Source: Streptomyces spinoverrucosus (GTDB lineage: Bacteria; Actinomycetota; Actinomycetes; Streptomycetales; Streptomycetaceae). Taken from it: 64,000 nucleotides of DNA. Under the pieces are notes generated by a model, which was not told the origin of the DNA, did not search any database, and saw only the letters and a list, made by a program, of their open reading frames with translations. The first letter of the stretch is position 1. Each line of letters begins with the position of its first letter. Shown here one piece after another: positions 1 through 8,874 of the stretch. A program made the translations under genes and the position numbers. The DNA is taken from NCBI RefSeq assembly GCF_015712165.1, contig NZ_JADPZX010000001.1, positions 6,026,001-6,090,000 of the forward strand. Direction: 5' to 3'.

Positions 1-254
1 TGCCCGCGGGACGCGAGGTACTTGACGAAGGTGTGGGGGCTGTCCTGGTTGCGCGGCATGACCAGATCACGAAAGGGGTTGTTCTGGATGTCCGCGCCGG
101 GCAGCAGTTGCTCGTCCTGCCATTGGAAGCGGTCCGACCGCTCGATGAAGTGGGCCTCTCCCAGTCGGCCGAGTTCGTCGAGCATCACGGCCAAGGAGAG
201 ATTCGCCGGCCCGAACCCTATTCCCAAGATGGGGTAAACCTGTTCGTTCGTCAC
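1..254 (-). CDS. L-lysine/L-ornithine N-monooxygenase, N-terminal part (cut by window edge)
   Basis: Flavin- and NADPH-dependent enzymes of this family (IucD, SidA, PvdA, Spb38) hydroxylate the side-chain amine of lysine or ornithine. The visible 84 residues read as the family N-terminus: the FAD-binding motif GIGFGPANLSLAV, then FQWQDEQLLPGADIQ and DLVMPRNQDSPHTFVKYL, which match the usual spacing. The start is a GTG at 252-254. An in-frame TGA lies two codons upstream, and a GAGGA ribosome site (265-270 on the plus strand as tcctcg) sits about 10 bases before it. It is the last visible gene of a minus-strand operon, 114 bases after panD. Its neighbours, a cupin and a MetRS-like enzyme, point to N6-hydroxylysine for hydrazine formation. 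Siderophore biosynthesis is the alternative but has no support in the visible neighbours. Substrate choice cannot be read from this fragment. Confidence 0.85.
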   Translation of the reverse strand, partial: MTNEQVYPILGIGFGPANLSLAVMLDELGRLGEAHFIERSDRFQWQDEQLLPGADIQNNPFRDLVMPRNQDSPHTFVKYLASRG

Positions 255-368
255 TGGTCACGCATCCTCGACTTGTCGCGCGTGCAGGCATACGGGCGGA
301 GTTGCGCCGGTGGTGGAAGGCGGGCGGCGCGGGGCGCCGGGTGACGCCGCAGCGCCCCGCGGCGGGGG

Positions 369-746
369 TCAGGAGCTCAGCAGGGCCGTCTCCGTGATCG
401 CGTTGGCGTCGTCGACGTGGACCACCCGGGACTTGAAGCCGACCCGCTCCTCCTCGGTCAGCTGGGCGTAGCTGATGATGATGACCTTGTCGCCCGGCTG
501 GACCAGGCGGGCGGCGGCGCCGTTGATGACGACCTGGCCGGCGGGGGGCTCGGGGGAGTCGTCCAGGATGGTGTAGGTCTCGAAGCGGGCGCCGTTGTTG
601 ATGTTGACGACGTGCACCAGTTCGTTGACGCCGATCTCGGCCGCTTCGAGCAGCTCCGGCGAGATGGTGATCGACCCGACGTAGTTGAGGTTGCTGTCGG
701 TGACGGTGGCACGGTGGATCTTCGAGTGCATGAAGGTGCGCAGCAT
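369..746 (-). CDS. panD: Aspartate 1-decarboxylase (pyruvoyl enzyme)
   Basis: PanD decarboxylates L-aspartate to beta-alanine after self-cleavage between Gly24 and Ser25, which makes the pyruvoyl cofactor. The protein is 125 residues, the usual length. The expected residues are present: Lys9, His11, Tyr22, Gly24-Ser25, Arg54, Tyr58 and the NGAAA loop near residues 75-79, so it should be a processed, active enzyme. It lies 49 bases after the MetRS-like gene in a secondary-metabolite operon, not beside panB or panC. I therefore infer a pathway-specific role: supplying beta-alanine as a building block, or decarboxylating a related amino or hydrazino acid. That it merely duplicates the pantothenate enzyme is possible but less likely in this context. 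Confidence 0.9.
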   Translation of the reverse strand: MLRTFMHSKIHRATVTDSNLNYVGSITISPELLEAAEIGVNELVHVVNINNGARFETYTILDDSPEPPAGQVVINGAAARLVQPGDKVIIISYAQLTEEERVGFKSRVVHVDDANAITETALLSS

Positions 747-795
747 GAGGTGACTCCTGGTGATGTGAGGGGTGGTGTGGTGCTCGTCGTGCGGA

Positions 796-2403
796 TCAGG
801 CGACAGGCCCGTCGCTCTGCCGGGCAGCGGTGACCAGGCCGGTGAAGGCGCCCGGCGGTCGGTGGTCCAGCTCTGCCGGCAGGGGCGGGTTCCCGGCGGT
901 GGAGGGGGCGCCGAAGGCGTTCGACACCTGCTCGCTCAGGTCCGGGGTGAGGGGCCAGGCCAGGGTGCGCAGCGTCCACAGGAACCGCAGGGCGCCGCAC
1001 ACGTCCGCGGGGTCGTCGGCGTCGAGGTCCGCGCAGCGCAGCGCGAGCACCTCCAGGTGCAGGGCGAGTGCCTCCGCGGCCTTGCGGATGGAGAACGTCT
1101 CCAGGGCGTAGGCCTCCTCGAAGCGCCGGCGCGAGGCCCGCAGTGCCGCGTCCCACCAGGCGGAGGGCTCGGTGTCGACGCGCCGGCCGGCGGCGGTGGC
1201 GGTGAGTGTCGTGGCGATGGTCGTCAGCGGGTCGTCGAACCGGGCGGCCAGGGTGGCGGCGGCCACCGGCTCGCTGAACTCGGACTGCTGAAGTTCGGGG
1301 CTGGTCAGGGACAGCACGAACCGGGCGCGGTCGCGGCCGAAGCTCTCCAGGAACTCTCCCGCCCAGCGCACATCGCCCTTGCTGGTGGAGAACTTGCGCC
1401 CTTCGAGCAGGTAGTACTGGTTGGTCAGGGTGCGGGTCCTGGGCAGTTCGACCGGCAGGCCGTGGCGGACCGCGAGCAGCGACAGCGCCACGTAGACGAA
1501 GGCGTTGTAGAAGCCGTTGTCGATGCCGATGAACTGGACCAGCTCGTCGCACCCGGCCGCGCGGCCCTCGCGAGCCCGCCGCAGCCAGTACACGTGACCC
1601 ACGTAGATCTCCGGCCAGGCGTTGATGGCCTGCGGCAGGCCGCCGGGTCCGTCCCAGTCCACCGTGATGCCCCAGGTGCTGGGGTAGGTGATCGGAATGT
1701 ACGGCAGGGGGCCGGCCAGGGTCTGGGTGACCACGCGCTGCAGGTCGGGGCGCAGGGGCACGTCCTGGGACCGGTACCAGTGGGTCAGCATCGACCGGTG
1801 GCGCTCCAGGTCCAGCACCCAGATCGAGGCCGGCCGGCGCGGCAGGGCCGAGGCCGAGTCGGCCACGGGCAGCAGGGCACCGGGGAGGTTGTACAGGCCG
1901 CAGGCCTCGCAGACCCCGGCCCGGGCGTGTGCCAGGCAGGTGGGACAGCGTCCGGTGACGAACGCCTCGGCCCGGTAGGCGTCCGAGTCGGCGTCGTACG
2001 GCAGTTCCACCTCGCGGCGGTCGAAGGCGCCGTGCCGCCACAGGTGCGTGAAGAAGTGCTCGACGAAGGCCGTGTAGTCGGCGTCCGGACGCTCGAAGAG
2101 GTCGACGTCGACGGCGCCCAGCTCCAGCGTCTTGGTGACGCTGTCGAAGGCGTGCCGGATGAGCGACTCGGGGTCGGTGCCGAGGCGTTCGGCGGTGGTG
2201 ACGACGTACGTCTGGTTGTCGTCGGTGCTGGTCCCGAAGGCCACGTCGTGTCCGTGGATCTTCTGGGACCGGGCGCAGACGTCGGCGGCGAGCACCGGGC
2301 CCGAGAGGTGGCCGAGGTGGAGGTCGCCGTTGGGGGTCGGTGGGGAGAACGTGACGTTGATGCGTCGCCGGCCGGGCTCGGCGCCGTGCGGGGCGTCGGT
2401 CAT
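796..2403 (-). CDS. Methionyl-tRNA synthetase-like enzyme, probable hydrazine synthetase subunit
   Basis: 535 residues of class I aminoacyl-tRNA synthetase fold. Visible elements are HLGH (residues 29-32, HIGH box), a zinc knuckle with Cys153, Cys156, Cys165 and Cys168, FIGIDN (291-296), and KFSTS (337-341) in place of KMSKS, followed by an alpha-helical tail. It overlaps the upstream cupin by ATGA (2400-2403), so the two are translationally coupled. Known cupin-MetRS fusions such as Spb40 (s56-p1) and Tri28 (triacsin) join an amino acid to N6-hydroxylysine as an ester using the MetRS part; the cupin then rearranges the ester to an N-N bond. Here the two parts are separate proteins, and a lysine/ornithine N-hydroxylase gene lies in the same operon. 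Being the housekeeping MetRS is unlikely because of the operon setting and the altered signature. The amino acid activated is unknown. Confidence 0.85.
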   Translation of the reverse strand: MTDAPHGAEPGRRRINVTFSPPTPNGDLHLGHLSGPVLAADVCARSQKIHGHDVAFGTSTDDNQTYVVTTAERLGTDPESLIRHAFDSVTKTLELGAVDVDLFERPDADYTAFVEHFFTHLWRHGAFDRREVELPYDADSDAYRAEAFVTGRCPTCLAHARAGVCEACGLYNLPGALLPVADSASALPRRPASIWVLDLERHRSMLTHWYRSQDVPLRPDLQRVVTQTLAGPLPYIPITYPSTWGITVDWDGPGGLPQAINAWPEIYVGHVYWLRRAREGRAAGCDELVQFIGIDNGFYNAFVYVALSLLAVRHGLPVELPRTRTLTNQYYLLEGRKFSTSKGDVRWAGEFLESFGRDRARFVLSLTSPELQQSEFSEPVAAATLAARFDDPLTTIATTLTATAAGRRVDTEPSAWWDAALRASRRRFEEAYALETFSIRKAAEALALHLEVLALRCADLDADDPADVCGALRFLWTLRTLAWPLTPDLSEQVSNAFGAPSTAGNPPLPAELDHRPPGAFTGLVTAARQSDGPVA

Positions 2404-2756
2404 GGAGTGGGCTCCCCCTGGTCTGCGGGCTGCAGCCAGTAGATGCTGACGAAGGTCAGCGGCCGGCTGGTGCTGGTGTTGGTGACGATGTGCCGGGTGC
2501 CGTGCGGGATGTAGATGACGTCGCCCGGGACGACCTCCCGCTCCTCGTCGCCGACCCGTGCCCGCCCCTGGCCGCTGACGAAGATGAACGTTTCGTCGGT
2601 ATCGTGGCCGTGCGGGGTGCTGGACTCCTCGGGACGGATGGAGCACAGGGTGCTGTTCCACGGAGGGGTGACGACGCCGTCCCAGGGATACAGCTGGCGG
2701 ATGTCACAGCCGTTCTTGCGGATCAGTTCGTCGCCGGCCTCGGTCTTGACGTGCAT
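2400..2756 (-). CDS. Stand-alone cupin, probable hydrazine-forming partner
   Basis: A 118-residue single-domain cupin. The metal ligands are visible: His49, His51 and Glu55 in the first motif (PHGHDTDETF) and His89 in the second (IPHGTRH). Small cupins bind Fe, Zn or Mn in a beta-barrel. Because it overlaps the MetRS-like gene by four bases, it probably acts with that protein. In fused hydrazine synthetases the cupin domain turns an O-acyl N-hydroxylysine ester into a hydrazine. The FAD gene ends 42 bases upstream, so this is the second gene of the operon. Other cupin roles, such as an epimerase, dioxygenase or sugar-binding protein, cannot be excluded by sequence alone, but the pairing is the strongest clue. 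Confidence 0.82.
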   Translation of the reverse strand: MHVKTEAGDELIRKNGCDIRQLYPWDGVVTPPWNSTLCSIRPEESSTPHGHDTDETFIFVSGQGRARVGDEEREVVPGDVIYIPHGTRHIVTNTSTSRPLTFVSIYWLQPADQGEPTP

Positions 2757-2798
2757 ACGGTTCCTCTCTGTTCTGTCGGCGTGTGTCGGGGCGGCAGG

Positions 2799-4043
2799 TC
2801 AGCCCAGGGCGAAGAGGCGCTCGATGACCCGCGGTTCGAAGGACTCGGCGGGTACGTGGAAGGGGCCCTTGAAGGTGGCGAGCCGGGACCCGGCCAACAC
2901 CGGGTCGGTGGGCCACACTTCGGCGTACGCCTTGCGGCGGGCGACGCCCTCGGGGGTGAAGGTCATGTTCATCGTGGTGCGCACCGAGCCGGAGATCCGC
3001 AGGCGGTGCATCCGGATCCGCCTCTCGCGGGCGTACGGCTCGAAGACGCCCGGCTCCCACGCGTCGCCGGAGCGCAGGCAGTCGCGCACCATCCGGGCGT
3101 CCCGCAGCGCGACGGACAGGCCCTGCCCGATGACCGGGTCGCTCCATCCGGCCGCGTCCCCGACCAGTACCGCGCCGGGGGCGAAGGGCGTGTCCGCCCA
3201 GGCGTCGTTCATCGGGTAGAAGGCGCAGACGGCCGCCGGGGTCGCCGCGGTGAACATCTCGCTGCCCGGAATGCAGTCGAGCCGGAAGGCCCGCAGGAAC
3301 TCGGCATGGCGGTTCGGCCCGGTGAAGCGGCCCTTCTGCGCGACGTCGTGCAGCAGGTACAGGCGCGCCCGGCCGCCCTCGCGGGGGAAGACGAAGTACA
3401 GCAGGTCACCTTCGGTACCGACCGAGGTGACGTTGACGGGCCAGGCGTGCAGGTCCTCCACCAGCATGCCGCCGCCCAGGGAGTTGGGCGGAGTCTGGGT
3501 CAGTCCGATGCCCAACTGGCGGCGCACGGTGGACATCCGCCCGTCGGCGCCGACCACCAGGCGGCAGGGGACCTCGTATTCGACGTCGTTGTGCTCGTAG
3601 CGCACGCTCGGAGCCTCGCCGCCCGTCACCAGGACGTCGCCCACACCTCGTACGACGGTGACGCCGGCCTCCTCGGCAGCGCCGGACAGTGCCTCGCAGG
3701 CCTCGGGATGCCCGACATCGAGTACGCCACGAATTCCGGGCAGCATTTCATCCAGCGGTAAGGCCCTGGCCCTCGCGGTGTCCGGATCGACTATCTCGTC
3801 GAATCCGATGAAGCGGTCCACATATGTTCCACCGGCCTTCAGGATGCATTCTTCCAAGCCCAGTTCAAGGAGTTCCGCAACTCCCCAGCAGTTGATCACT
3901 TCACCCCGGACCTTGTCCCGGTAAATGGTCTGCCGCTCAAGGAGCAGGACGTCGTGTCCGTCCCCCGCCAGGGCCGCGGCCAGCGCGGATCCGGCGATCC
4001 CGCCGCCGACGACGACCGCGTCGATGTGTTCAGCTTTCGCCAT
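2799..4043 (-). CDS. FAD-dependent oxidoreductase/monooxygenase (PHBH-like fold) with a TTA codon
   Basis: 414 residues. The N-terminal dinucleotide motif GGGIAG is at residues 13-18, an FAD-contacting GADGRMSTVRRQL segment lies mid-protein, and a GDAAGWSDPVIGQG motif lies near residue 310. This layout is typical of p-hydroxybenzoate hydroxylase-like monooxygenases and geranylgeranyl-reductase-like flavoproteins. The ATG at 4041-4043 has a GGGAGGA site six bases upstream. It is the first gene of the N-hydroxylase / PanD / MetRS / cupin operon, so I infer oxidation of the hydrazine or a later intermediate. Codon 95 (Leu, plus-strand taa at 3759-3761) is TTA, which in Streptomyces needs the developmentally controlled bldA tRNA. 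Nothing in the sequence fixes the substrate. Confidence 0.8.
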   Translation of the reverse strand: MAKAEHIDAVVVGGGIAGSALAAALAGDGHDVLLLERQTIYRDKVRGEVINCWGVAELLELGLEECILKAGGTYVDRFIGFDEIVDPDTARARALPLDEMLPGIRGVLDVGHPEACEALSGAAEEAGVTVVRGVGDVLVTGGEAPSVRYEHNDVEYEVPCRLVVGADGRMSTVRRQLGIGLTQTPPNSLGGGMLVEDLHAWPVNVTSVGTEGDLLYFVFPREGGRARLYLLHDVAQKGRFTGPNRHAEFLRAFRLDCIPGSEMFTAATPAAVCAFYPMNDAWADTPFAPGAVLVGDAAGWSDPVIGQGLSVALRDARMVRDCLRSGDAWEPGVFEPYARERRIRMHRLRISGSVRTTMNMTFTPEGVARRKAYAEVWPTDPVLAGSRLATFKGPFHVPAESFEPRVIERLFALG

Positions 4044-4241: not shown

Positions 4242-4838
4242 TCACCCGCCGCGTGCCGCGCGGATTCCGCGCAGGGCGACTTTCCACAGCTGCTGGAGCC
4301 GTTCCACGGCGTCCGGTTTCCGTCCGGCCTCATGGGCGGCGCGGGTGCGCAGTTCGGTTCCGACGAGGAGATACGCGGCCAGGGCGGCCACGGCGGCCGG
4401 GGGAGTGTCGGCGTGCAGCTGGCCCGCCCGCTGGGCCCGGTCGGCGAGTTCACTGACCGTCGGCAGCCAGGCGGACCACCACGCCGGGGCGATGCCGGGG
4501 CGCTCGCGGGTGAGCCGGGCGGCCGACCGCGTGACCGTGTCCTCCTCCAGGAGCCGGGCGAGGTGCGTGGTCAGGTCGACGACCAGACTGAGCGCGGGAG
4601 TCGACGACGCCTCGGCCCTGACCCGGTCGACGACGGCACGTGCGGCCGCGCAGCCGTGGTCCTGGACGGCGTCGGCGAGTTCACTCTTGGTGCCGAAGTG
4701 GAAGGCCAGGGCGCCGGTCGTGATGCCCGCCGCGCGGCACACCTGCACGATCGAGGCGCCGGCGTAGCCGTGCCGGTCGAACTCGAAGGCTGCCGCCCGC
4801 ACCAGGGCCTGACGTGTTCGCGCTGCTCTTGCCTGCAT
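4242..4838 (-). CDS. TetR-family regulator resembling gamma-butyrolactone (pseudo)receptors
   Basis: 198 residues. The N-terminal helix-turn-helix (about residues 6-50) contains the stretch GYAGASIVQVCRAAG followed by GALAFHFGTKSELADAV, which strongly resembles the ArpA/ScbR type. The rest is the variable ligand-binding part, with Trp residues around 119-120. The FHFGTK turn is FHFPSK in classical receptors. In many Streptomyces clusters a second such protein is a pseudoreceptor that answers to other small molecules, often antibiotics. It lies between the biosynthetic operon (left) and a divergently read transposase-like gene (right), so it probably controls one or both. The 346-base divergent region holds two palindromes that could be its sites. 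The ligand is unknown. Confidence 0.8.
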   Translation of the reverse strand: MQARAARTRQALVRAAAFEFDRHGYAGASIVQVCRAAGITTGALAFHFGTKSELADAVQDHGCAAARAVVDRVRAEASSTPALSLVVDLTTHLARLLEEDTVTRSAARLTRERPGIAPAWWSAWLPTVSELADRAQRAGQLHADTPPAAVAALAAYLLVGTELRTRAAHEAGRKPDAVERLQQLWKVALRGIRAARGG

Positions 4839-5184
4839 GGGGGCTCCGGGGGCGATGGCCGGCCGCCGGGAACGGCCAGGTGAACTTCCGCGGGAAAACG
4901 CTTGCAGTCACGGCAACGTGGGGCTCCGCGGGGGCAGGGCGGAGCCCGGTCGGGTGATCTTGCAGGCGGGACGCACAGCATTGCCCTCGCTTGATGTTCG
5001 TATCAAGTCCGTCTTCCGGACAGGTCCGCGGGTACGGCCTGTTCCTTCTCTTCACCGATGCCCTGGCCTCACGTCGAGTTCACTCCGCCCGGCCGGGGTT
5101 GTCCGAATCTCACGTCCTCGAAAACATAGTTGAGTCAATTATTCTGATGCCATTGGAGAGGTGCCCGCAACGGAAAGGATCTTC
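4839..5184. promoter_or_regulatory. Divergent promoter region with two imperfect palindromes
   Basis: No gene is seen here. The base composition is lower in GC than the neighbours. Two palindromes stand out. One is CTTGAT-N6-ATCAAG at 4990-5007. The other is a 17-base near-palindrome at 5126-5142 (ATAGTTGAGTCAATTAT, 14 of 17 positions symmetric), 42 bases before the start of the transposase-like gene. The second follows AAAACATA, which also occurs at the left edge of the operator between the afsA-like and receptor genes. They are candidate sites for the local TetR proteins. Confidence 0.4.
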
Positions 5185-6336
5185 ATGTCCTCGCGCCGTA
5201 CGACGTCCAGCGCGCCACCCGTCCCCACCGATCAGCTCTCCGACTTCGCGGACTCGGTGTTCGCTCACCTCAACCGTGTCGACCAACGCCGCTGGGGCCA
5301 CGCCTATCTGCTCGGGCTGCTGACCACGCCCGGCAAGAAGACCGTACGGCGCCTTGCGGCCGCGGTGACCGACTCGCCGACGGCGTCGCAGTCCCTGCAG
5401 CAGTTCGTCAACTCCAGCCCCTGGGAGTGGGAACCGGCCCGGCACGAACTGGCCCGGTGGGTCGACGAGCGGCTGCGCCCACGTGCCTGGACCATCGCCA
5501 CGACGGTCATGCCCAAGCGCGGGGACCATTCCTGCGGTGTGCACCGGCGCTTCATACCCCGCCTCGGCCAGACGGTGAACTGCCAGGTCGGCGTAGGGCT
5601 TTTCCTGTCCGACGGCGAGTGCGCCGTGCCCGTGGACTGGCGGCTGCATCTGCCCGAACACTGGACGCTGCCCCGGCTGCGCAGCCGGGCGCGCATCCCC
5701 GGCGACGCCCGCCCGACGCCGATGTGCGCCGACGTCTTCGACATGGTGGACAGCCTGCGGCGCGGCACCGGCGTGGCACCCCTCCCGCTCGTGGCCGACA
5801 TGCGGGACGGCGAGGCCGCCGACCTGGTGCGGCTGCTCACCCGGCAGCGGCACGACTTCGTGGTCGCCGTCCCCGCCAACTTCCCCGTCCTGCCGGCCGA
5901 CGCACCCGGTCCCGACCGGCCGGCCCTCACCCTGCTCGCCCAGTTCGCCATGGACGACACGCCCGCCGCCGGCGGCGACACAGGCGTGCTCAGCAGCCTG
6001 GTCCGGCTGCCGGGTTCGGGCGCGCCCGGCCTGCACGGGCGACGGGTCCTTCGGCTGTTCACCGACTGGCGCGCGGGCCGGCGGCGGCCCGCCGTCGTCT
6101 GGATCACCAACATGGTGAGACGCCGGACGACGGAACTCCTCTCGCTGGTCGAGCACCACGCCGGGACCGCCGACACCGTGGGCGAGTTGGAGCGGGATTT
6201 CGGACTGCTCGACTTCGAGGGCCGCTCGTATCCGGGCTGGCACCACTACATGACCCTGGTCTCCGCGGCCCACGCGTTCCGGGCGCTGGAGGGCTCCCGC
6301 CCCGCGTCGGCCGCCGAGATCCCCGTGTGCGCCTGA
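5185..6336 (+). CDS. IS701-type transposase homologue with a degenerate active site (probably domesticated)
   Basis: 383 residues align by eye along the whole IS701 transposase fold: the N-terminal part, the PKRGDHSCGV and LGQTVNCQVGVGLF blocks, VADMRDG (residues 203-209) and DFEGRSYPGWHHYMTL (343-358). In active members the first catalytic site reads as a DD pair just before the PK-G-HS block. Here residues 106-107 are Thr-Thr (WTIATTVMPK). The third acidic residue, Glu345, is kept. I see no terminal inverted repeats or target duplication. The ATG at 5185 is chosen over the GTG at 5161 because GGAAAGGA lies six bases upstream. Set among A-factor-type regulators, it is more likely a fixed regulatory or DNA-binding gene than a mobile element. 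Confidence 0.75.
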   Translation: MSSRRTTSSAPPVPTDQLSDFADSVFAHLNRVDQRRWGHAYLLGLLTTPGKKTVRRLAAAVTDSPTASQSLQQFVNSSPWEWEPARHELARWVDERLRPRAWTIATTVMPKRGDHSCGVHRRFIPRLGQTVNCQVGVGLFLSDGECAVPVDWRLHLPEHWTLPRLRSRARIPGDARPTPMCADVFDMVDSLRRGTGVAPLPLVADMRDGEAADLVRLLTRQRHDFVVAVPANFPVLPADAPGPDRPALTLLAQFAMDDTPAAGGDTGVLSSLVRLPGSGAPGLHGRRVLRLFTDWRAGRRRPAVVWITNMVRRRTTELLSLVEHHAGTADTVGELERDFGLLDFEGRSYPGWHHYMTLVSAAHAFRALEGSRPASAAEIPVCA

Positions 6337-6346
6337 GCGCACCCCC

Positions 6347-7102
6347 TCAGATCGCGCTGTACCCACCGTCGACGGGAACTGCGGCTCCGGTGACGAACGA
6401 CGAGAGATCACTGCACAGCCAGGCCGCGGCACGCGCCACCTCCTCCGGCTCGCCGAACCGCCGCTGCACGGCCCGCGGGTCGGGTGTGTCGGCGGAGAGT
6501 CCGAGGATCTCCAGGTTCTCCTCCAGCAGCGGCGTTCTGATGCTGCCCGCGACGAGCGCGTTGACGCGGATGCGCCGCTCGCCGTAGTCGGCGGCCGCGG
6601 CCTTGGTCAAGCCCAGGACGGCGTGCTTCGCCGCGACGTAGGGGGCCACCGCGCCGGTGGCGAACTGCCCCGCGATACTGGAGGTGTTCACGATGGAACC
6701 GCCGCTCTCCTGCTCCAGCATGACGGGTATCTGATGGCGCAGACAGTTCCAGACGCCCAGCACGTTCACCGCCATGATCCGGTGGTACAGCTCGTCGGGG
6801 GTCTCGTGAAGGGCGAGCCCCGCCGTTCCCCAGCCGGCGTTGTTGAAGGCGGCGTCCAGCCGGCCGAAGTGACGTACGGCTTCCGCGACGGTGTGCCGGA
6901 CGGCCTCGGACGACGTCACGTCCCCCGGCACGGCGAGGGCGCTCGCTCCGCCGACGACGAGTTCCGCCGTGAGGTTCCTGAGCCGTTCCGCCCGGCGCGC
7001 CATCAGCACCACGTGCGCGCCTTCGGCGGTGAACAGTCTGGCGGCGGCTTCCCCGATCCCGCTGGACGCCCCGGTGATCATGATTGTCTTGCCGGCGAGC
7101 AT
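6347..7102 (-). CDS. Short-chain dehydrogenase/reductase
   Basis: 251 residues of classical SDR. The cofactor loop TGASSGIG is at 10-17, NNAG at 87-90, the catalytic serine at 141 or 142, and the YxxxK pair is Tyr155 and Lys159. It ends with the usual SSFVTGAAVPVDGGYS segment. The ATG at 7102 is preferred over an upstream GTG at 7132 because GGGGGA lies six bases before it. It sits between the transposase-like gene (convergent, 10-base gap) and the butyrolactone receptor gene (same strand, 64-base gap). Signalling loci often include a reductase that finishes the butyrolactone or butenolide. That role is inferred from position; a tailoring step of the adjacent pathway is the alternative. Confidence 0.85.
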   Translation of the reverse strand: MLAGKTIMITGASSGIGEAAARLFTAEGAHVVLMARRAERLRNLTAELVVGGASALAVPGDVTSSEAVRHTVAEAVRHFGRLDAAFNNAGWGTAGLALHETPDELYHRIMAVNVLGVWNCLRHQIPVMLEQESGGSIVNTSSIAGQFATGAVAPYVAAKHAVLGLTKAAAADYGERRIRVNALVAGSIRTPLLEENLEILGLSADTPDPRAVQRRFGEPEEVARAAAWLCSDLSSFVTGAAVPVDGGYSAI

Positions 7103-7166
7103 GGATCCCCCGTCGATTTTCAGGTCTTGCACGGCGAATGTCGGTGGTGCCGGGCAGACCGCGCGG

Positions 7167-7817
7167 TCACTCCTTTCGGATCCGGCCGCGGTCCTGGTTC
7201 AGTTCGATACGGCGGAGCGTGGTCGGCGTGGCGATGGCGGGCAGCAGGCAGTGCCACATGTCGACGACTCGTTCGGGCAGGTCCTCGCGGCCCGTTTCCA
7301 GGTACGCGTGCATCTGGGCCCCGGTGCAGGCGTTGACGATCAGCCGCGCGATGGCGTCCACGTCCGTGGCCGCCCGCAGCTCCCGTTTGCGCTTGGCGGC
7401 GGCCAGTTCGTCCGTCAGTATGCGGGTCCACTGCTGGTGGGAGTTCTCCGCCGACTCCATGAAGAACTCCTGCTCCATCACCAGCCGGGCGCCCGCCGCC
7501 AGGTAGACGTCCTCCAGGACCTGGTACGCCCAGCTCAGCGTGATGTCCACCACGCGTTGCAGGCCGGTCGAGTCGATCGGCGGGGCCACCTGGTCAGGCT
7601 GCTGCTGGACGATCGCCCGGGCGAGCTCCCCCTTGTTCCTGAAGTGGAAGTACATCGCGCCCAGCGTCACCCCCGCCCGGTCGGTGATCTCCGTCAGGGT
7701 GGTGCGGGAGAAGCCCTGCTCGGAGAACACCTCGGCCGCGGCGCGCAGGAGTTCGGCCCGAGTGCGCAGGGCACGCTCCTGAACTGCCGTCGTTCTGCCG
7801 CCTCTTGCACCTGCCAT
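7167..7817 (-). CDS. Gamma-butyrolactone receptor-type TetR repressor (ArpA/ScbR family)
   Basis: 216 residues, the usual receptor length. The DNA-binding domain reads QERALRTRAELLRAAAEVF, then GFSRTTLTEITDRAG and GAMYFHFRNKGELARAIV. The C-terminal part keeps a Trp in WHCLLP, and the LSWAYQVLEDVYLAAGARLVMEQ stretch is typical of receptors. The ATG at 7817 has a GAGGGA site; the reading frame stays open upstream, but that part is the operator region. It is divergent from the afsA-like gene with a palindromic operator between them. The classical arrangement predicts that the receptor represses both genes until the AfsA product binds. Which butyrolactone, butenolide or furan it senses cannot be told. 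Confidence 0.88.
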   Translation of the reverse strand: MAGARGGRTTAVQERALRTRAELLRAAAEVFSEQGFSRTTLTEITDRAGVTLGAMYFHFRNKGELARAIVQQQPDQVAPPIDSTGLQRVVDITLSWAYQVLEDVYLAAGARLVMEQEFFMESAENSHQQWTRILTDELAAAKRKRELRAATDVDAIARLIVNACTGAQMHAYLETGREDLPERVVDMWHCLLPAIATPTTLRRIELNQDRGRIRKE

Positions 7818-7845
7818 GCGGTCCCTCGGTTCTTGCTCGACAGAA

Positions 7846-7871
7846 AACATAATCGTACCTACGTTTATGTT
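7846..7871. promoter_or_regulatory. Autoregulatory element (ARE)-like operator
   Basis: A 26-base imperfect palindrome lies between the receptor and afsA-like genes. The arms are AACATAA and TTATGTT with further matches inside (TCGTA / TACGT type), so 22 of 26 positions are symmetric. Size, AT-rich arms and position match operators bound by ArpA-type receptors. It is 29 bases upstream of the receptor start codon and 56 upstream of the afsA-like start, so one bound dimer pair could silence both promoters. Confidence 0.75.
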
Positions 7872-7926
7872 GAAGTGTTTCCAGGAGGAGACGCGACGCG
7901 AACGATGATGTTCCGGGAAGGATGTC

Positions 7927-8874
7927 ATGGCCGTCGACTCTGGGGCCCCGTTACCCGGCCTGGGTCAGTACGTGGGCAAGACCGACCCCGACGAAGTGCT
8001 CGTCACCAGGTGGTCGCCGCATCACGACGGGGCGCACCTGGTCATCGCGCGCTGGCCCCGCGTGCACCGCTTCTACACCCCCACGCCCGCCGCGCACGGA
8101 CCCCACCTGTTCACCGAAAGCGTCCGCCAGGCGCTGGCGCTGCTGGCCCGCGCCGCCTTCGGCGTCCCGATGTCCCACCGGCTGAGCTGGGAGACCTATG
8201 TCTCCACCGTGTCGCCGCACACCCTGCGCACCCGCCCGGACGCCACGACCGTGGAACTCGTCGTCGTCCATGACACCCCCGTCCGGCGAAGGCTGGGCAC
8301 GGTGCACCTGAGCGCCTCGATCACCGCCGTGCGCGGGGAGGTCCGGCTGGGCACCGCCCGGGTGCGCTACACCGCTTTCCCCCCGAAGCTCTACGACCGC
8401 CTGCGCGGCCGGTACGCCGACGCCAAGGAGGCCTGCGCCCGGGCCTTGCCCGCTCCACCTCCCCTGCCGTGCGCGCTCGTCGGGCGCTCGCGGCCCGGCG
8501 ATGTCGTCCTCGCCGCCGCGGACGCGCCACGAACCTGGCTGGTGAGGGCCGACACCAGCCATCCCGTGCTCTTCGACCACCCGCACGACCACGTACCCGG
8601 CATGCTGCTGCTGGAGGCGTGCACACAGGCCGCCGTGGCCGACGCGCATCCGTGGCGATCGACCCCGGTCGGCTTCGAGACCACCTTCTCCCGCTACGTC
8701 GAACTCGACCAACCCTGCCGGATCACGGCCGAGGACCTGGCTCCGGCCAGGCCGGGCCAACGCCGTGTCCGCCTCACCGGCAGGCAGGCCGGACAGGAGT
8801 CCTTCTCCGCCGTCGTCACCGGACAGGTCACCGACCCCGTCGCCGCATCGCGCTTCGCGCCCGCCTGGGCCTGA
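7927..8874 (+). CDS. AfsA-family signalling-molecule synthase with a TTA codon at position 9
   Basis: AfsA/ScbA proteins condense a beta-ketoacyl chain with a glycerol-derived unit to start gamma-butyrolactone synthesis. This 315-residue protein shows the two tandem hotdog repeats of the family: FTESVRQALALLARAAFGVP in the first and DHPHDHVPGMLLLEACTQAA, followed by a second barrel, in the C-terminal half. The GGAAGGA site five bases before the ATG fixes the start. It is divergent from the ArpA-like receptor with an operator between. Codon 9 (7951-7953) is TTA, so translation should depend on the bldA tRNA. It is probably the source of the signal controlling the adjacent hydrazine-type genes. 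Confidence 0.9.
   Translation: MAVDSGAPLPGLGQYVGKTDPDEVLVTRWSPHHDGAHLVIARWPRVHRFYTPTPAAHGPHLFTESVRQALALLARAAFGVPMSHRLSWETYVSTVSPHTLRTRPDATTVELVVVHDTPVRRRLGTVHLSASITAVRGEVRLGTARVRYTAFPPKLYDRLRGRYADAKEACARALPAPPPLPCALVGRSRPGDVVLAAADAPRTWLVRADTSHPVLFDHPHDHVPGMLLLEACTQAAVADAHPWRSTPVGFETTFSRYVELDQPCRITAEDLAPARPGQRRVRLTGRQAGQESFSAVVTGQVTDPVAASRFAPAWA

Follow-up and report, generated by a model that had tools for sequence, protein, structure and literature searches.

A candidate two-protein hydrazine synthetase beside a PanD gene

The subject of this analysis is an operon at the left edge of a 64,000-nucleotide stretch of the Streptomyces spinoverrucosus genome (8.85 Mb in 5 contigs), called the window throughout (contig NZ_JADPZX010000001.1, here C1; C1:6026001-6090000), to which 36 kb of left flank was added. 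All genes of the operon lie on the minus strand and encode, first gene first, an FAD_binding_3 enzyme, a stand-alone cupin, a protein resembling methionyl-tRNA synthetase (MetRS-like), a PanD-type aspartate decarboxylase, and an N-hydroxylase, followed by a DAO-like flavoenzyme (PF01266, 149.3 bits), a condensation-fold protein, a VOC-like protein, an FdxA-type ferredoxin, and a SerA-type dehydrogenase (Table 1). The operon extends leftward beyond the window edge and includes the panD gene; its intergenic gaps measure at most 114 bases, 3 junctions overlap, and the cupin 3' end shares an ATGA overlap with the start of the MetRS-like gene. Gene calls by codon-position GC miss genes and misplace starts, and gene presence was therefore taken from tblastn unless stated otherwise.

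An earlier, sequence-only reading of the window had described an N-hydroxylase fragment, a MetRS-like protein with three signature motifs, and a separate overlapping cupin, and had proposed that they make an N-N bonded metabolite through a two-protein synthetase, with lysine as the expected substrate. These parts are all in place: the flank completes the N-hydroxylase gene, and the MetRS-like protein carries HLGH at residues 29-32, a zinc knuckle at C153/C156/C165/C168, and KFSTS at 337-341. The two-protein synthetase with its N-hydroxylase is likewise supported by tree, fold, and cupin residues, while the lysine part of the proposal has become doubtful in view of the substrate site described below.

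A grouping of the MetRS-like protein with housekeeping MetRS, which the sequence-only reading had named as a finding that would speak against it and which was looked for in a 91-row tree, does not occur; the two housekeeping MetRS split off with an SH-aLRT support of 100, and the best fold match is the MetRS-like domain of PyrN. In the cupin, H49/H51/E55/H89 match the spacing of the zinc and catalytic residues D63, H65, E69, and H103 given for RHS1 in the excerpted text of PMC8664883, with His in place of Asp at the first position; the sequence match between the cupin and RHS1 (5uqp) is weak (E 0.058). We propose the MetRS-like protein as the adenylating, ester-forming half and the cupin as the N-N forming half, and the operon very probably joins two nitrogen atoms by this known two-protein machine.

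With the pocket positions of E. coli MetRS carried over to the alignment, the MetRS-like protein stands apart from its relatives: the combination of Ser (at A12), Gly (V298), and Asn (H301) is found in 19/19 rows of the cassette defined below and in 0/66 other synthetase rows, with Ser at A12 alone limited to the cassette clade and the other two residues found more widely. In the HMMER alignment, Asn300 stands in place of an arginine of PyrN, which argues against glutamate as the adenylated amino acid. The Asp equivalent to E. coli D52, the residue that holds the substrate alpha-amine in MetRS, is kept.

A PanD paralog conserved within the cassette

Relatives of the MetRS-like protein were collected in one scan of genome contigs with two peptide patterns that yielded 358 stretches, and the comparison was confined to the best 80. 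These comprise a close set of 18 loci (L005-L022; MetRS-like identity 56-89%) and 62 loci at 41% or below. The cupin, MetRS-like, PanD, N-hydroxylase, DAO-like, condensation-fold, and VOC-like genes follow each other in the same order in 18/18 close loci (the VOC-like match in L022 covers only half), so that the arrangement is not due to chance. The FAD_binding_3 enzyme was found in all but one of them, AsnB and MFS genes lie further right in 7/8 extended loci (75-90% identity), and the presence of ferredoxin and SerA is variable within the stretches seen. Among the best 80 stretches, the cluster occurs in Streptomyces, Kitasatospora, Actinomadura, Kibdelosporangium, and Nocardia, and in an even sample of the genus 4/151 genomes, the window genome counted, hold a MetRS-like match of at least 74%. 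Two variants were seen along the way: the MetRS-like gene of one congener (G048:C1:3174433-3175986) has one in-frame TGA, and that cassette may be decaying or misassembled; and two 2-oxoacid:ferredoxin oxidoreductase genes (POR/TPP domains) stand between the VOC-like and ferredoxin genes at L009:16771-19702, a pair that grouping of genes by codon-position GC placed in L009, L010, L011, L014, and L021.

The sequence-only reading had singled out PanD as an unfamiliar companion of this chemistry, and the comparison agrees. A panD gene lies between the MetRS-like and N-hydroxylase genes in all 18 close loci, and tblastn gave no PanD match in the 62 more distant loci, whose flanks reached at most 10 kb and were at times shortened by contig ends. 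Cassette PanDs are 71-93% identical to that of the window, other compared PanDs 51-61%, and in a 51-row tree the 19 cassette PanDs form one side of a branch with an SH-aLRT support of 99.9 (quick search over 118 columns, identical rows dropped, PanDs of retrieved loci only). At least two PanDs were found in each of the 18 genomes of the close set. The window PanD retains K9, Y22, G24-S25, R54, T57, Y58, and N75, and the catalytic residues of the family (Lys9, Arg54, Thr57, Tyr58, and the Asn) together with the Gly-Ser cleavage site are all kept in 10 cassette and 3 other rows. The window protein is a full match to the family and is predicted to decarboxylate aspartate, and we regard the cassette PanD, on the grounds of synteny and phylogeny, as a dedicated, conserved paralog specific to the cassette.

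An altered substrate site in the N-hydroxylase

In SidA, according to the excerpted account in PMC7347517, Lys107 pairs ionically with the carboxylate of the substrate, and hydroxylation is lost when this residue is replaced, while exchanges of Asn293, Asn323, and Ser469 weaken ornithine binding. Alignments place Lys and Asn at the positions of Lys107 and Asn293 in SidA, PvdA, KtzI, and MbtG; the window enzyme belongs to the wider family PF13434 and departs from this Lys-plus-Asn pattern with Arg62 and Arg239, keeping the equivalent of Asn323. This Arg/Arg pair is present in 19/19 cassette rows versus 0/63 rows from other hydrazine synthetase loci (3 of 66 such loci yielded no row), which read Lys/Asn (43), Arg/Asn (8), Arg/Asp (5), Arg/Glu (2), Ala/Leu (2), Arg/Gly (1), or a gap (2). 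The window genome holds three other strong N-hydroxylase matches that read Lys/Asn, Ser/Leu, and Ala/Leu; the Ser/Leu enzyme adjoins a gene for an NRPS-independent siderophore (NIS) synthetase and is perhaps a diamine hydroxylase, the alignment being uncertain there.

Among the best 120 database relatives, all 75 with at least 53% identity have Arg/Arg, compared with 4/45 below that value (47-51% identity); the remaining 41 carry Asp (23), Glu (12), Asn (4), Gly (1), or Cys (1) at position 239. One change between the two kinds suffices, with support of 100, in a tree built without columns 62 and 239. When identity was the only criterion for the two sets (76 rows at or above 53% and 39 rows below 46.5%, with 6 in-between rows excluded), fixed differences fell on 15/440 columns, among which 239 is the sole charge reversal and column 412, close to the motif of SidA Ser469, has Ala versus Ser; a looser 70% rule adds one more charge reversal at residue 289. 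In our reading, the enzyme has probably lost the alpha-ammonium site and acquired a second contact to a carboxylate; this would fit a short amino acid without an alpha-amine.

A possible route through N-hydroxy-beta-alanine

Sequence, structure prediction, and synteny establish the protein families assigned to the first four steps below, the conserved PanD link, and the changed N-hydroxylase site. The substrates and the order of steps are what we infer from them. PanD would decarboxylate L-aspartate to beta-alanine (step 1), which the Arg/Arg flavin enzyme would convert to N-hydroxy-beta-alanine (step 2); the MetRS-like protein would then adenylate an alpha-amino acid, probably not glutamate, and esterify it onto the hydroxylamine oxygen (step 3), and rearrangement of this ester by the zinc cupin would create the N-N bond of a 3-hydrazinopropionate-type product (step 4). 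Steps 2 to 4 make up the simplest mechanism that we see. Tailoring might fall to the DAO-like flavoenzyme, the FAD enzyme, a P450 with the ferredoxin, the condensation-fold protein, and an AsnB-like amidotransferase (step 5).

Beta-alanine is suggested as the hydroxylamine partner because PanD and the reshaped hydroxylase share a clade and adjoin in the operon. We see an even chance that the locus encodes a conserved actinobacterial pathway to an N-N bonded metabolite in which a two-protein hydrazine synthetase is fed through N-hydroxy-beta-alanine, and we hold only tentatively, at slightly below even, that a dedicated PanD supplies beta-alanine to a re-specialized N-hydroxylase whose product stands in for N6-hydroxylysine as the synthetase's hydroxylamine partner. 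Deeper members may share the pairing of PanD and Arg/Arg N-hydroxylase: a MetRS-like protein (P0067), an Arg/Arg N-hydroxylase (P0200), and a PanD of 75% identity (P0296) each come from a 7977-base contig of the same source, likely one and the same contig.

Several observations weigh against this route. The nearest solved protein to the N-hydroxylase (5cqf, 201 bits) is named L-lysine 6-monooxygenase and has Arg/Asn, and two arginines could also accommodate some other amine that is short or acidic. All 18 close loci retain the DAO-like gene, and in lysine pathways a DAO-like enzyme removes the lysine chain. As hydroxylamine parts, the excerpted review PMC11705231 names lysine, DABA, putrescine, and DAPN, with beta-alanine not among them. 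The PanD tree covers PanDs of the retrieved loci only, and the database also holds PanDs at 67-75% identity, with no gene context to go by. Finally, no PanD other than that of the cassette was found in the window genome (G000), where supply of coenzyme A may be a further role of this PanD or its only one; since no PanD was found in 12/151 genomes of the genus sample, PanD seems dispensable in some.

Other roles for PanD and the adenylating enzyme

The best-placed alternative, which we consider unlikely but far from negligible, is that PanD stands outside the N-N chemistry, either as a self-protection copy or as a source of beta-alanine for coenzyme A or a late step, with the hydrazine arising from lysine- or ornithine-type chemistry. 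Hydrazines attack pyruvoyl and pyridoxal phosphate enzymes, the catalytic residues of cassette and other PanDs are identical, the window genome shows no second PanD, and neighbors of primary-metabolism type (SerA, FdxA, AsnB, and in some loci 2-oxoacid:ferredoxin oxidoreductase) would be in keeping with such a role. It sits poorly, however, with the place of PanD within the core cassette in 18/18 loci and its absence from the matches at the other 62, with the other PanD already present in all 18 genomes, and with the altered substrate site of the N-hydroxylase of the same loci.

Less probable still is that beta-alanine is the partner adenylated by the MetRS-like protein, the N-hydroxylase acting on lysine, ornithine, or a relative. 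The panD gene lies directly 3' of the MetRS-like gene, Asn300 of the MetRS-like protein takes the place of an arginine in PyrN, whose structure was determined with a glutamyl analogue, and the cassette-specific pocket suggests that the adenylated amino acid may also be unusual. Against this, the Asp equivalent to D52 is retained and it is the N-hydroxylase that is altered at known substrate-binding positions; with a beta-amino acid the rearrangement would presumably have to pass through a larger ring, and the amine partner is mechanistically restricted to amino acids in the excerpted text of PMC11705231.

Hydroxamate siderophore genes, or an aminoacyl-tRNA synthetase paralog without N-N chemistry, are hardly credible here: N-hydroxylases of the SidA/IucD/PvdA family often serve siderophores and the domain names are those of aminoacyl-tRNA synthetases, but tree and fold put the MetRS-like protein among hydrazine synthetases, the cupin carries the residues of an N-N forming zinc site, three other strong N-hydroxylase matches (one beside a NIS gene) exist in the genome, and the search for a siderophore gene immediately to the left, which the sequence-only reading had named as a sign against itself, gave no NIS or nonribosomal peptide synthetase match adjoining the window (nearest NIS C1:5519936-5520685, about 0.5 Mb away; nearest Condensation-family match on this contig C1:6415108-6416472, about 0.39 Mb away).

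Neighboring genes and possible regulation

Left of SerA follow genes for Ada-AlkA, a LysR regulator (named from its sequence only), a P450, an acyl-CoA thioesterase-like protein, AraC, MFS, and the AsnB-like amidotransferase. The latter starts with Met-Cys-Gly, matches the asparagine synthase profile with 494 bits (cut-off 267), and could form an amide. The predicted model of the condensation-fold protein (pLDDT 86.2) resembles AzeD and condensation domains of nonribosomal peptide synthetases. The Ada-AlkA alkylation-repair gene adjoins 4/9 extended clusters, including that of the window; it may serve self-protection and would be in keeping with a pathway whose N-N intermediates are alkylating.

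On the other side, a counterpart of the DDE_5 gene adjoins the cluster in 11/18 related loci (47-67% identity), in 9 of these 11 together with the AfsA, SDR, and both TetR genes, and the gene behaves as a resident rather than a recent insertion. The AfsA-family, SDR, and TetR genes form a group of signal-and-receptor type adjoining the cluster in 9/18 related loci, and butyrolactone-like control of the cluster is plausible.

Table 1. Positions of the operon genes and their neighbors (window numbering unless a contig is given).
Feature	Position	Strand	Evidence or remark
FAD_binding_3 oxidase/monooxygenase, first gene of the operon	2799-4043	-	domain match; in 17/18 related loci
Stand-alone cupin, 118 aa	2400-2756	-	Cupin_2, 60.1 bits
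MetRS-like protein, 535 aa	799-2403	-	tRNA-synt_1g, 152.5 bits
panD-like L-aspartate alpha-decarboxylase	369-746	-	Pfam Asp_decarbox, 149.5 bits; TIGR00223, 133.6 bits (cut-off 106)
SidA/IucD/PvdA-type N-hydroxylase, 440 aa	C1:6024932-6026254 (window 1-254 = N-terminal part)	-	PF13434, 265.1 bits
TetR-type regulator	4242-4838	-	syntenic in many related loci
DDE_5 (transposase-type) gene	5161-6336	+	counterpart in 11/18 related loci
SDR oxidoreductase adjoining the AfsA gene; candidate pathway member	6347-7132	-	
TetR-type regulator adjoining the AfsA gene	7167-7928	-	
AfsA-family (A-factor biosynthesis hotdog) protein	7927-8874	+	
Ada-AlkA alkylation-repair gene	C1:6017807-6019354 (L003:7807-9354)		

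Significance and comparison with known systems

In the open full-text literature we found neither a hydrazine synthetase cluster with PanD nor a pathway through N-hydroxy-beta-alanine, though closed-access papers could hold either. PanD is the unusual part here; separate MetRS-like and cupin proteins were already known. The review PMC11705231, in its excerpted text, states that the scope of hydroxylamine parts must be extended. If the proposed route is true, the enzyme toolbox would gain a naturally occurring pair of enzymes for N-hydroxy-beta-alanine, with a short, direct way to 3-hydrazinopropionates and possibly to pyrazolidinone or pyridazine rings, and an orphan cluster of the five genera named above would be explained.

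Like the operon described here, the Spb38/Spb39/Spb40 (s56-p1), Tri26/27/28 (triacsin), and azaserine systems cluster an N-hydroxylase and a DAO-like enzyme with MetRS/cupin chemistry, as far as the excerpts of PMC11705231 and PMC7347517 describe them, but they use lysine and glycine with didomain enzymes. In the lysine-type hydrazinoacetic acid pathway, N6-hydroxylysine is joined to glycine and hydrazinoacetic acid is then released; the operon does encode a DAO-like protein, but its N-hydroxylase and MetRS pockets differ from those of the locus of the azaserine producer S. fragilis (L072), which has a Lys/Asn N-hydroxylase and a different MetRS pocket code. The albofungin enzymes Afn8/Afn9/Afn18 and Afn14, likened here by description rather than by sequence, resemble the cluster in their separate MetRS-like and cupin proteins, N-hydroxylase, and asparagine-synthase-like enzyme, with no PanD named for the Afn system in the excerpted PMC11705231; the counterpart of the asparagine-synthase-like enzyme is the AsnB-like gene, found some 14 kb beyond the left edge of the window but within the same conserved cluster. 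The same two catalytic parts occur in RHS1 of Rhodococcus jostii with its stand-alone MetRS-like protein and in the fused PyrN of pyrazomycin biosynthesis. Stand-alone MetRS-like and cupin proteins are already in print, and PyrN and the Rhodococcus proteins couple glutamate to N6-hydroxylysine (PMC8664883, from excerpts). To these two shared parts the cassette adds PanD and an Arg/Arg N-hydroxylase, and it has Asn300 in place of the PyrN arginine.
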